Below are positions 56,373 through 59,838 of a stretch of DNA of 64,000 nucleotides, in pieces (the first letter of the stretch is position 1; the number at the start of each line of letters is the position of its first letter). Source of the stretch: Nitrospirota bacterium (GTDB taxonomy: Bacteria; Nitrospirota; Thermodesulfovibrionia; Thermodesulfovibrionales; SM23-35); the NCBI GenBank assembly GCA_040754395.1, contig JBFMCL010000002.1:62001-126000 (forward strand), given 5' to 3'. The notes under the pieces are model-generated. The model was given only the letters and a program-made list of their open reading frames with translations. It ran no database searches and was not told where the DNA came from. A program made the position numbers and the translations under genes.

Positions 56373-57265
56373 TCCGTGTCGGAACCTGTTCATGGACGGA
56401 AAAGACACTGATGCAGAGCGGTGAATTCTATCCCGAAAAAGTAAAAACACCGGAAGAACGTCTGAGATATTACGCACATCACTTTACCACAGTAGAGGTG
56501 GATTCCACATATTACGCAATTCCTGACAAAAGAACGACGCATCTCTGGAACGAGAGAACGCCTGAGGATTTCATCTTCCACATTAAGGCATACGGAGCGT
56601 TGACAGGCCACGGGGTAGCCCCAAAGACCCTCCCGAAGGATATCTTCGATTTGCTTTCCCCGGCAGACAGGACCAGAAAATACGTGTACATCAAAGAACC
56701 GGCTCTTCTTGAATCAATAACTGCACGGTTCAGTGAAGCCCTTGCTCCTCTCAGGCAGTCCGACAAGCTGGGCTGTGTTGTTTTTCAATACCCCCCATGG
56801 TTCCGTCATGCAACTGCACATATGGACGTTATCCTCAGGTCAACACATTTCATCCAGCAGGACATGCAGGTCGCTGTTGAATTCAGGCATGGGAGTTGGC
56901 TGACTTCAGACACCACAGCCCCGGTCCTGCAGTTTCTGAAAGACCATCAGTTATCTTATATATCCGCAGATGAACCGCAGTATGGTTCTTTGGCCACCGT
57001 GCCTTTCATCCCCGACGCTACAACAGACATCGCCTACTTCAGGTTCCATGGAAGGAATACACAGAACTGGCTGAAAAAAGGGACGGAGACAGCGCTCCGT
57101 TACAGTTACCTCTACTCAGATGAAGAATTGGCGGGATTTGTGCACGCTCTCAGGACAACAGAGAAAAAAACAAAGGTAACCTACGCCATGTTCAACAACT
57201 GCCACGGGGGGTTCGCGATGAGAAACGCGATGAGACTGCAGGAAATGACAAAGGGCAGGGCATGA
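56369..57265 (+). CDS. DUF72 family protein
   Basis: A 298-residue TIM-barrel-like DUF72 protein: MIRVGTCSWTEKTLMQSGEFYPEK is the family opening, with FTTVEVDSTYYAIP and YFRFHGRNT further on. The role of DUF72 is not established. It overlaps the ADP-ribosylglycohydrolase by 4 bases. Confidence 0.92.
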   Translation: MIRVGTCSWTEKTLMQSGEFYPEKVKTPEERLRYYAHHFTTVEVDSTYYAIPDKRTTHLWNERTPEDFIFHIKAYGALTGHGVAPKTLPKDIFDLLSPADRTRKYVYIKEPALLESITARFSEALAPLRQSDKLGCVVFQYPPWFRHATAHMDVILRSTHFIQQDMQVAVEFRHGSWLTSDTTAPVLQFLKDHQLSYISADEPQYGSLATVPFIPDATTDIAYFRFHGRNTQNWLKKGTETALRYSYLYSDEELAGFVHALRTTEKKTKVTYAMFNNCHGGFAMRNAMRLQEMTKGRA

Positions 57266-57361
57266 TCCCTTTCTCAAAAAGGGGATAAAGGGAATTTCTC
57301 ATTGTTGCCCATGCATTCGCATTACTTACCGTGACCTGAATGCCGCCATCCTACACACCTC

Positions 57362-57396
57362 TTGACAAAGAAAATATTTTAGTATACATTTGTATA
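57362..57396 (+). promoter_or_regulatory. lexA promoter with TATACA-TT-TGTATA operator
   Basis: TTGACA (57362-57367) is followed after 17 bases by TACATT (57385-57390). An inverted repeat TATACA/TGTATA with two bases between (57383-57396) overlaps the -10, a good place for LexA autoregulation, although it is not the CTGT-N8-ACAG box of gamma-proteobacteria. Confidence 0.5.
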
Positions 57397-57420
57397 TATA
57401 ATATTTCCCCACTTTCTGAG

Positions 57421-57482
57421 GGGGCAGGGACATCGAGAACCCCAATCCCGATTCTCCCTGCCCCGCTCTGCAACAGGGATTG
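57421..57482 (+). promoter_or_regulatory. Structured lexA 5' leader, possible pseudoknot
   Basis: GGGGCAGGGA (57421-57430) pairs perfectly with TCCCTGCCCC (57455-57464). CAATCCC in its loop (57443-57449) is complementary to GGGATTG downstream (57476-57482), so a pseudoknot or alternative hairpin is possible. The leader is about 140 bases. Confidence 0.45.
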
Positions 57483-57534
57483 ACGGAATAACTCCTGTTC
57501 GGGGGAAATCCGGGGAGGTTCAAAAAACGGTCTC

Positions 57535-58134
57535 ATGAGAGCACTCACTGATAAACAGAAGAAGGTACTCGAATTCCTTATTGAGTTCACCAAAGACCAC
57601 GGCTACCCCCCTACAGTCAGAGAGATCGGCGAACATTTCAGGTTTCTCTGGGCTGCTGCACGAGGACATCTTCAGGCACTGCAAAGGAAGGGTTTCATAA
57701 AACTGGAACCTTCCAAGTCCAGGGGGATAGAGATCCGGGGCCTGATGCCTTCAGGCGGATTCATGGTTCCTGTCGCAGGGAAAATACGGGCAGGGAAGCC
57801 TCTTCTGGCACGGGAGGATATTGATGCGCACATTCTTGTCGATCAGTCCCTGTTTCCCCATGCAGATGCGTTTACTCTCAAAGTGACAGGCGACAGCATG
57901 ACAGGGGCGGGGATATTCGACGGGGATTTTGTGGTGATCAGGCCGCAGACAACGATAGAACACGGCGGAATCGGTGTCGTCCTTGTGGCAGACGAAGCTA
58001 CGGTAAAAAGGGTGTACAAAAAAGGGGGGAAAATAATCCTTCAACCGGAAAACAGCACCATGCAGCCGACAGAACACAGTCCCCATGAAGTGACTGTTCT
58101 GGGAAAGGTTATCGGGGTAATAAGAAAACTGTGA
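57535..58134 (+). CDS. lexA: SOS repressor LexA
   Basis: A 199-residue repressor-protease: N-terminal winged helix (LTDKQKKVLEFLIEF, PPTVREIGE), cleavage site Ala86-Gly87 (KIRAGKP), catalytic Ser121 (GDSMTGAGI) and Lys158 (ATVKRVYK). GGAGG lies 16 bases before the ATG, unusually far; the start is otherwise the only plausible ATG. It heads a group with the small gene and dinB. Confidence 0.95.
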   Translation: MRALTDKQKKVLEFLIEFTKDHGYPPTVREIGEHFRFLWAAARGHLQALQRKGFIKLEPSKSRGIEIRGLMPSGGFMVPVAGKIRAGKPLLAREDIDAHILVDQSLFPHADAFTLKVTGDSMTGAGIFDGDFVVIRPQTTIEHGGIGVVLVADEATVKRVYKKGGKIILQPENSTMQPTEHSPHEVTVLGKVIGVIRKL

Positions 58135-58320: not shown

Positions 58321-58560
58321 ATGGAAATCGGAGATACCATAAGTGTGGTGGCCTCATTCGGGCTGCCCTATAAGATACAACCGCTCAGGTTCAGGTGGTC
58401 AGGAAGACTTTTTGAGGTAAAAGACATCACCTATACATGGCAGACCAAAGAGGGACACCGCATGATTTACCATTTCTCGATATCAGACGGAAAGACATTG
58501 TATGAACTCAGTTTCGATGCCACATCGCTTCTGTGGAGGCTGGAAAGGCTGGAGGCATAG
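58321..58560 (+). CDS. Small DUF6504-like protein between lexA and dinB
   Basis: A 79-residue protein (MEIGDTISVVASFGLPYKI). The RFRWSGRLFEVKDI stretch and YELSFDATSLLWRLERLE end resemble DUF6504-type proteins found next to SOS polymerase genes. Function unknown; the position suggests a role in the SOS response. The upstream in-frame extension to 58267 has no support and no ribosome site. The 186 bp after lexA hold no other gene. Confidence 0.65.
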   Translation: MEIGDTISVVASFGLPYKIQPLRFRWSGRLFEVKDITYTWQTKEGHRMIYHFSISDGKTLYELSFDATSLLWRLERLEA

Positions 58561-58602: not shown

Positions 58603-59838
58603 ATGAAGAACCCACTCATGTCCAGAATAATCCTTTGCATAGACATGGACGCATTTTTTGCCTCGGTGGAGCAGCAGACACATCCTTTCCTCAGGGGAAA
58701 GCCGGTCGCGGTCATCGGCTCAGGCGCAAGGACAGTCATCACGACGCGTTCGTACGAAGCGAGAAAATACGGGGTAAAAACGGGGATGAATGTCTGCGAG
58801 GCGAAAAAACTCTGTCCGCATATCATCTTTGTTGCAGGGAACAATGAAAAATACACCTTCACCTGCAGGGATCTCCAGAATATCTATCTTCAGTTTACTC
58901 CGGATGTGGAAGTCTATTCCATTGATGAGGCATTTCTCGACGTGACTGCAACGCATCATCTTTTCGGGGGGCCGGAATCCATCGGCAAACGCATCAGGGC
59001 AGAAGTAAAAGAACGCTTCGGTATTACCTGCACGGTCGGCATTGCTCCAAACATACTCATTGCAAAGCTTGCCAGTGATATCGCAAAACCTGACGGATTA
59101 CGGTGGATCAGGCCCGATGACGTCACCTCAGTGCTCGAAGATATGCCTTTGAAAGAACTCTGGGGAATAGGTTCCGGGATTACTGCTCAACTTGAAGGTC
59201 TGGGGATAAAGACCTGCGGTCAGCTCGGAAGGACACCGGCAAGCCTTCTGAGGAACAGGTTCGGCATACCCGGTGAACATCTCAAAGCCATGGGGATGGG
59301 AATCTGCAACAGACCTTTGCTTGTCCGCGAGGAAGATCCCAAGTCCATCGGACACAGCATGACCTTTCCGAGAGATCTGGGCAGCGGGCAGGAAACAGAG
59401 GCAGAGATACTGAAACTGAGCGATATGGTAGGAAGACGGGCAAGGAGATACGGATACATCGGCAGAAAGATCTCGCTGACGGTAAGGTATCCGGATTTTG
59501 AGACGTTTTCGAGACAGACAACGCTTCCGGCACACACCAATCATACCCATGAGATATACCGGAACGCCATTTCCCTTTTAAACAGCATCCGGTTGAAAGA
59601 CAGGGTCAGACTGCTCGGGGTATGCCTGTCCGGCCTTATCAGGGACTCACACCAGATGCTGCTGTTTGAAGCACAGAGAAAAGAGAAGGCAATCCTGCAG
59701 GCGATGGATACCGTCAACGACCGGCACGGTGACTTCAAACTCCTCTGGGCGTCGTACCTGAAGCATGTGGATCCTCCCCGCGTGATATCCCCCGCGTGGA
59801 AACCTTCCGGGGTCAGGAATATACGAGTGCGGAGATAG
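58603..59838 (+). CDS. dinB: DNA polymerase IV (Y family)
   Basis: A 411-residue translesion polymerase: palm motifs IDMDAFFASVEQ and YSIDEAFLDVT, helix-hairpin-helix thumb (LWGIGSGITAQLEGLGI), and a little-finger domain. No standard clamp-binding QLxLF peptide is obvious, although LLFEAQRKEK after MLLFE may serve. GGGGGG precedes the ATG by ten bases. It follows the small gene by 42 bp. Confidence 0.94.
   Translation: MKNPLMSRIILCIDMDAFFASVEQQTHPFLRGKPVAVIGSGARTVITTRSYEARKYGVKTGMNVCEAKKLCPHIIFVAGNNEKYTFTCRDLQNIYLQFTPDVEVYSIDEAFLDVTATHHLFGGPESIGKRIRAEVKERFGITCTVGIAPNILIAKLASDIAKPDGLRWIRPDDVTSVLEDMPLKELWGIGSGITAQLEGLGIKTCGQLGRTPASLLRNRFGIPGEHLKAMGMGICNRPLLVREEDPKSIGHSMTFPRDLGSGQETEAEILKLSDMVGRRARRYGYIGRKISLTVRYPDFETFSRQTTLPAHTNHTHEIYRNAISLLNSIRLKDRVRLLGVCLSGLIRDSHQMLLFEAQRKEKAILQAMDTVNDRHGDFKLLWASYLKHVDPPRVISPAWKPSGVRNIRVRR

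Follow-up and report, generated by a model that had tools for sequence, protein, structure and literature searches.

The upstream region of lexA in this member of the Nitrospirota probably combines two layers of different age, a LexA operator and a leader RNA that was added later and is specific to one clade. The palindrome, very probably the operator that switches lexA, is common to most relatives, and the leader, to judge from the loci compared here, is a gain made once, by a single clade. The window, as the term is used here, is the whole stretch of 64,000 nucleotides that was analysed.

Predicted operator and promoter of lexA

In the window, lexA is followed by a small conserved ORF and by dinB, and the promoter region and the genes are arranged as follows:

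57362..57367, plus strand: lexA promoter, -35 hexamer TTGACA (promoter scan; TTGACA also lies 5' of the box in the closest relatives)
57383..57396, no strand assigned: predicted LexA operator (SOS box) TATACATTTGTATA, of the form ATAC-N4-GTAT (conservation at lexA, and dinB copies in two relatives)
57385..57390, plus strand: -10 hexamer TACATT, within the operator (promoter scan)
57535..58134, plus strand: lexA, 199 aa (NCBIfam TIGR00498 at 204.6 bits, cut-off 110.95; Pfam LexA_DNA_bind and Peptidase_S24)
58321..58560, plus strand: small conserved ORF between lexA and dinB, about 79 aa (ORF list; no Pfam or NCBIfam match)
58603..59838, plus strand: dinB (DNA polymerase IV), apparently in the same operon as lexA (Pfam/NCBIfam)

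Relatives of the small ORF were found behind lexA in 8 of 30 loci, the window included (strict motif), and it is possibly an undescribed SOS-linked gene. The lexA promoter, TTGACA-17-TACATT, matches at 10 of 12 positions and is the sole promoter-like site in 57200-57700. Read from the sequence, TATACATTTGTATA is a perfect palindrome that overlies the -10 of this promoter, just as the original prediction had described it (TATACA-TT-TGTATA). The gene downstream is the LexA repressor itself; the GAAC and GTTC half-sites of the Gram-positive-type box are absent from the site, which reads ATAC-N4-GTAT.

The proposal that this palindrome serves as the SOS box of the lineage was followed through the order. 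A search of 176 of its genomes gave 30 lexA loci (L082-L111), and these, together with 22 regions fetched from the same genome list and a fragment from G109, made up a set of 52 readable upstream regions; G107 and G142 were left out of it, because in both the contig breaks off within lexA or right at its edge. A match was defined as TATACANNTGTATA at no fewer than 11 of 12 positions within 400 nt upstream of lexA. By this rule 38 of the 52 regions carry the box, 28 of them at 12 of 12 positions; 10 of 5200 first-order simulated regions score as high, and the reversed pattern does so in none of the 52. The 14 regions without a nearby box are those of G033 and G034, where lexA's own box lies 720-736 nt upstream, G007 and G078 (both 10/12), G162 (6/12) and nine further ones of family f9. 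In seven of the latter (L220-L224, L226 and L227) sites of the GAAC-N4-GTAT or GTAC-N4-GTAC type lie no more than about 100 nt from the matched start, L228 has GAACGTGTGTTT in its lexA promoter, and the upstream region of L218 holds no site of either form. The mixed half-sites in the f9 promoters (L220-L224 and L226-L228) are possible intermediates between LexA box types. In family f12 (L097, L099 and L102) the lexA promoter contains two tandem boxes.

The position of the box relative to the promoter varies. As read from the sequences, it covers the -10 in the closest relatives, whereas family f6 and the lexA operons of G033 and G034 have it between the -35 and the -10. A box that is kept while the promoter shifts around it points to an operator rather than to promoter sequence. 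Outside the order, a box followed within two bases by ATGAAA occurs in 7 of 395 genomes of the phylum, including G216 and G194, which lie outside the window's class and in which the gene reads as lexA. The nearest named relatives of the window's lexA are in a Thermodesulfovibrionales MAG (75% identity) and in a MAG labelled Nitrospira sp. (74%); G098 and G104 are members of the window's own family, f1. The LexA DNA-binding domain of the window (57535-57720) and of related families is one residue shorter and has a W in the recognition-helix region (FLWA-AARGHL versus YRSPLAAKLHI in f6), and the TATAC-N4-GTATA box is the same for both types of recognition helix.

Sites away from lexA are few. 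The exact operator occurs once in the window's own genome, at lexA, and with up to two mismatches 28 operator-like sites were found there versus 49 for the reversed control, so that none beyond lexA stands above chance. Near-matches before a TusA-like gene (L112) and a gene of no recognised kind (L113; both named by eye) were accordingly taken as chance, the reversed control being commoner. Nor does an operator lie near recA in this genome (G000:C31:20398-21360, 550.5 bits). The composite TTGACA-N13-18-TACAWWTGTA, searched in the 176 genomes, has a match in 30, and in G033 and G034 it precedes a dinB unit situated on a contig other than that of lexA; dinB was named there by the CIDMDAF start that it has in common with the window's DinB. 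The expectation of second copies at SOS genes was thus borne out in part, at dinB in two relatives; at recA and in the rest of the window's own genome nothing was found beyond chance. A further copy of the box, at G104:C35:25985, has no recognised SOS gene alongside. A TTGACA...TACAAATGTA stretch that is conserved in L175 (G000:C5:20470) and L180 (G098:C12:1345) falls within the reading frame of a gene for a Fur-like regulator, which is situated upstream of katG- or katA-like genes (all named by eye); this stretch probably matches the operator pattern by chance. Apparently, the regulon is a minimal one centred on lexA and dinB, with recA, checked in one genome, outside it.

Based on its conservation at lexA across the order and its presence before a dinB unit split from lexA in two relatives, TATACATTTGTATA is very probably the LexA operator of this lineage. 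The palindrome could alternatively be just the AT-rich extended -10 of a strong promoter, given its overlap with the -10 and the lack of enrichment beyond lexA in the window's own genome, but this is very improbable, as both half-sites are conserved through the order and in another class, and the palindrome is kept where it lies outside the -10 and recurs at a separate dinB.

Probable gain of a leader in one clade

The window's leader measures 138 nt up to the lexA ATG. Leaders of 99-138 nt are confined to 7 of the 29 readable loci, namely the window, G098, G097, G104, G095, G092 and G093. In nine others (L090-L094, L096, L100, L106 and L107) the gap between box and ATG is exactly 1 nt, in ten more it is 3-23 nt (one of these, G007, having only a 10/12 site), in G102 it is 76 nt, and in two the box is distant. 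In the nine relatives with the shortest gap the -10 lies inside the box, and transcription would consequently be expected to start on the A of the ATG or within 1-2 bases of it; by their sequence these lexA genes are leaderless-looking, with transcription starts and leaderless translation predicted accordingly. The triplet that follows the box plus one base is ATG in these relatives versus ATA in the leadered clade. In a tree of 30 LexA rows the seven leadered proteins form one group (support 82/91), and the leader maps onto the tree as one change, a result found in 84% of bootstrap trees and with 0 of 500 shuffles scoring as low. A separate arrangement is seen in G102 (L086), where the 76-nt leader holds a short upstream ORF on the lexA strand (by eye, some 22 codons long); its TGA and the ATG of lexA overlap, which suggests translational coupling.

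A conserved hairpin in the leader

The following elements were recognised in the leader of the window:

57398..57400, plus strand: ATA triplet at the place of the lexA ATG in the nine relatives (box, 1 nt, ATG); the leader starts here (TATA invariant in 6 leaders)
57407..57419, plus strand: 5' leader segment CCCCACTTTCTGA, conserved (all 7 leaders have CYCCACTTT)
57421..57428, plus strand: lower stem, 5' arm GGGGCAGG, columns c9-c16 (alignment and pair count)
57435..57439, plus strand: upper stem, 5' arm GAGAA (relatives have GGGAA, a compensated change from G-C to A-U)
57440..57451, plus strand: hairpin loop CCCCAATCCCGA, which contains CAATCCC (loop sequence not conserved)
57452..57456, plus strand: upper stem, 3' arm TTCTC (alignment and pair count)
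57457..57464, plus strand: lower stem, 3' arm CCTGCCCC (alignment and pair count)
57476..57482, plus strand: GGGATTG, complement of the loop in the window's genome only (comparison of loops and tails)
57514..57518, plus strand: GGAGG, Shine-Dalgarno-like, 16 nt from the ATG at 57535 (sequence read)

The 10-bp stem that had been predicted downstream of the promoter palindrome was found in the fold of the window's leader (57421-57430 with 57455-57464), with a GAG/CTC pairing below it (57418-57420 with 57466-57468); the upper stem is drawn differently in the minimum-energy fold of the window alone. The folding energy of this hairpin is modest (z -1.9, 9 of 200 shuffles being as good). CYCCACTTT followed by a two-tier stem is common to six of the seven leaders, and these six, from four genera (two pairs of near relatives and two single genera), were used to examine the pairing. 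As MAFFT alone misaligned the stem arms, pairs were counted on an alignment made by hand, with N as padding.

On this alignment, which was fitted to the structure and contains related rows so that the numbers lean in favour of the hairpin, standard pairs occupy 87.9% of 124 cells (22 pairs, six leaders), and 7 of the 22 pairs show two-sided compensatory changes, a count reached by 11 of 500 shuffles. The covariation score is 0.339 versus 0.182 +- 0.030 for shuffled alignments (0 of 500 as high), and controls in which the 3' arm was slid by 1-3 columns are only 31.7-56.7% paired, with 0-3 two-sided pairs. Pairing is kept in 82 of the 84 cells that make up the two core helices. Compensatory changes in the lexA leaders of relatives, which the original prediction had named as its test, are therefore present, and they indicate that the pairing of the leader hairpin has been selected.

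A model of the five other leaders, with the window left out (R2), placed 57407-57464 first in the 64 kb, at 25.9 bits (E 0.0002) against 10.8 for the next match; part of this score comes from the sequence CCCCACTTTCTGA rather than from structure, and the model draws the upper stem of the window out of register. A model of all six (R1), run over the 176 genomes, recovered those six at E 5e-6 or better together with one antisense match of the G095 leader, and strong matches occur only at lexA leaders. Weak matches in G136, G165, G081 and G135 (E 0.008-0.083) in the same search were taken as chance. The search missed the leader of G104, which has an unrelated palindrome instead, with a partial second match in its genome (35 nt, 86%). 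Taken together, a conserved RNA hairpin in the lexA leader is highly likely, and there is a reasonable likelihood, judged from sequence, that it affects lexA expression.

Alternatively, the stem could be an inverted repeat at the level of DNA, either a site bound by a protein or what is left of a palindromic element that had inserted there, and not an RNA structure. The different palindrome at the same place in G104, part of which recurs in that genome, would suit such an origin, as would the folding of the two strands: in five of the seven leaders the antisense folds as well as the sense and in fact has the lower energy, leaving a strand test uninformative. However, the non-Watson-Crick cells of the core helices comprise 8 G-U against 1 A-C (and 1 G-G), as expected of a sense RNA, with the reservation that related rows are not independent. 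In addition, the arm sequences differ between genera, unlike those of a protein site, and no other copy is present in the window's own genome, for which reason a dispersed repeat was rejected as the source of its leader. A repeat acting as DNA is therefore unlikely, and an RNA hairpin remains the preferred reading.

CYCCACUUU could pair with the G-rich Shine-Dalgarno region, with the hairpin bringing this anti-Shine-Dalgarno segment to the ribosome site and holding lexA translation down. This pairing is predicted in all seven leaders, most strongly in G095 (-15.2 kcal/mol), and a leader with a different hairpin still retains CYCCACTTT. Against shuffled tails, though, the seven leaders give p = 0.456, 0.575, 0.348, 0.373, 0.052, 0.152 and 0.134, i.e. 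no more pairing than C-rich and G-rich composition provides, and we regard this mechanism as quite improbable. The long distance of 16 bases between GGAGG and ATG, to which the original prediction had drawn attention, is real, although GGAGG lies just beyond the range of positions given there. The spacing from G-run to ATG is roughly 12-19 nt in G098, G097 and G095 and 5 nt in G092 and G093, and because of the latter two a long spacing cannot serve to define the element. Very improbable, too, is a pseudoknot acting as a switch on lexA translation, in which CAATCCC (57443-57449) would pair with GGGATTG (57476-57482): the two are exact complements over 7 nt with a loop-tail duplex of -14.4 kcal/mol, yet at least 7 matching bases arise in about 10% of shuffled tails (p about 0.10), and the six other leaders offer only 3-4 nt of complement (p 0.54 to 0.95).

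Other kinds of leader element were also looked for. No intrinsic terminator (a stem followed by a T-run) was found in 57200-57700, no Rfam leader family reached its gathering score in the window, where four tRNAs were the only matches, and the window's leader contains no ATG and hence no ATG-started leader peptide.

Proposed mechanism and comparison with known systems

In the two-layer arrangement that we favour, LexA, bound as predicted over the -10, would block RNA polymerase, and the unit of lexA, small ORF and dinB would be autorepressed, opening once LexA cleaves itself after DNA damage. Ancestral transcription probably started at the lexA start codon or within a few bases of it. In the window's clade a leader of roughly 100-140 nt would then have been inserted 3' of the box, the former ATG becoming ATA, and with it the two-tier hairpin preceded by CYCCACUUU. 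Within this reading the most likely role of the insert, and quite possibly the actual one, would be that of a fixed 5' hairpin that sets the stability of the lexA mRNA and the access of ribosomes and takes the place of leaderless initiation; next in line would be a target site of a trans-acting factor or of an sRNA. Neither a pseudoknot switch nor a terminator would be needed. Of the second control at the RNA level that had been suggested, the conserved structure with its compensatory changes has thus held up, the pseudoknot has not, and regulation itself is only possible. A regulated effect of the leader on lexA, i.e. a true second layer, can be proposed tentatively from these sequences. Just as tentative is the broader idea that a formerly leaderless lexA, with operator, promoter and start codon fused in about 40 bp, gained a dedicated RNA domain whose control would tune LexA resynthesis after damage.

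The LexA operator of Gram-positive bacteria is GAAC-N4-GTTC, of the xxAC-N4-GTxx kind. The site described here resembles such operators in its AC-N4-GT palindrome before lexA, in the predicted autoregulation and in dinB apparently sharing that control, and mixed GAAC-N4-GTAT and GTAC-N4-GTAC sites occur in family f9 of this order. It differs from the Gram-positive box in its outer bases, which are AT/AT (TATAC-N4-GTATA), in consisting almost entirely of A/T and in being fused with the -10. To date, 17 distinct LexA motifs have been reported, and none of those named in the accessible part of that report is TATAC-N4-GTATA (PMC8565304). A literature search on LexA motifs, SOS and lexA leaders, covering titles and abstract openings with most subscription journals outside its reach, returned nothing on this operator or leader. 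Together, the sequences suggest a derived xxAC-N4-GTxx LexA box and a lexA leader RNA that is specific to one clade and matches no Rfam family.

Bacterial mRNAs have structured 5' leaders of several kinds, among them riboswitches, attenuators and protective 5' hairpins. The window's leader is like them in that a conserved hairpin, with compensatory changes, lies ahead of the start codon and downstream of the predicted transcription start; it differs in having no Rfam match, terminator or ATG-started leader peptide, and strong matches to it are found only at lexA. These comparisons supply a concrete LexA operator for a large and almost uncultured order, and the mixed half-sites of a sister family may reveal the course of change in the box. 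One autoregulated gene also exists here in leaderless-looking and structured-leader forms, a natural comparison from which one could measure directly how a leader influences the way LexA returns once damage has occurred. A counterpart to the leaderless state is found in Mycobacterium tuberculosis, where, according to the accessible text of the report, experiment showed the lexA mRNA to be leaderless, with the start codon as transcription start (PMC2897130). By sequence the nine relatives described here look alike to it, whereas the window's clade differs in carrying a structured leader in its place.
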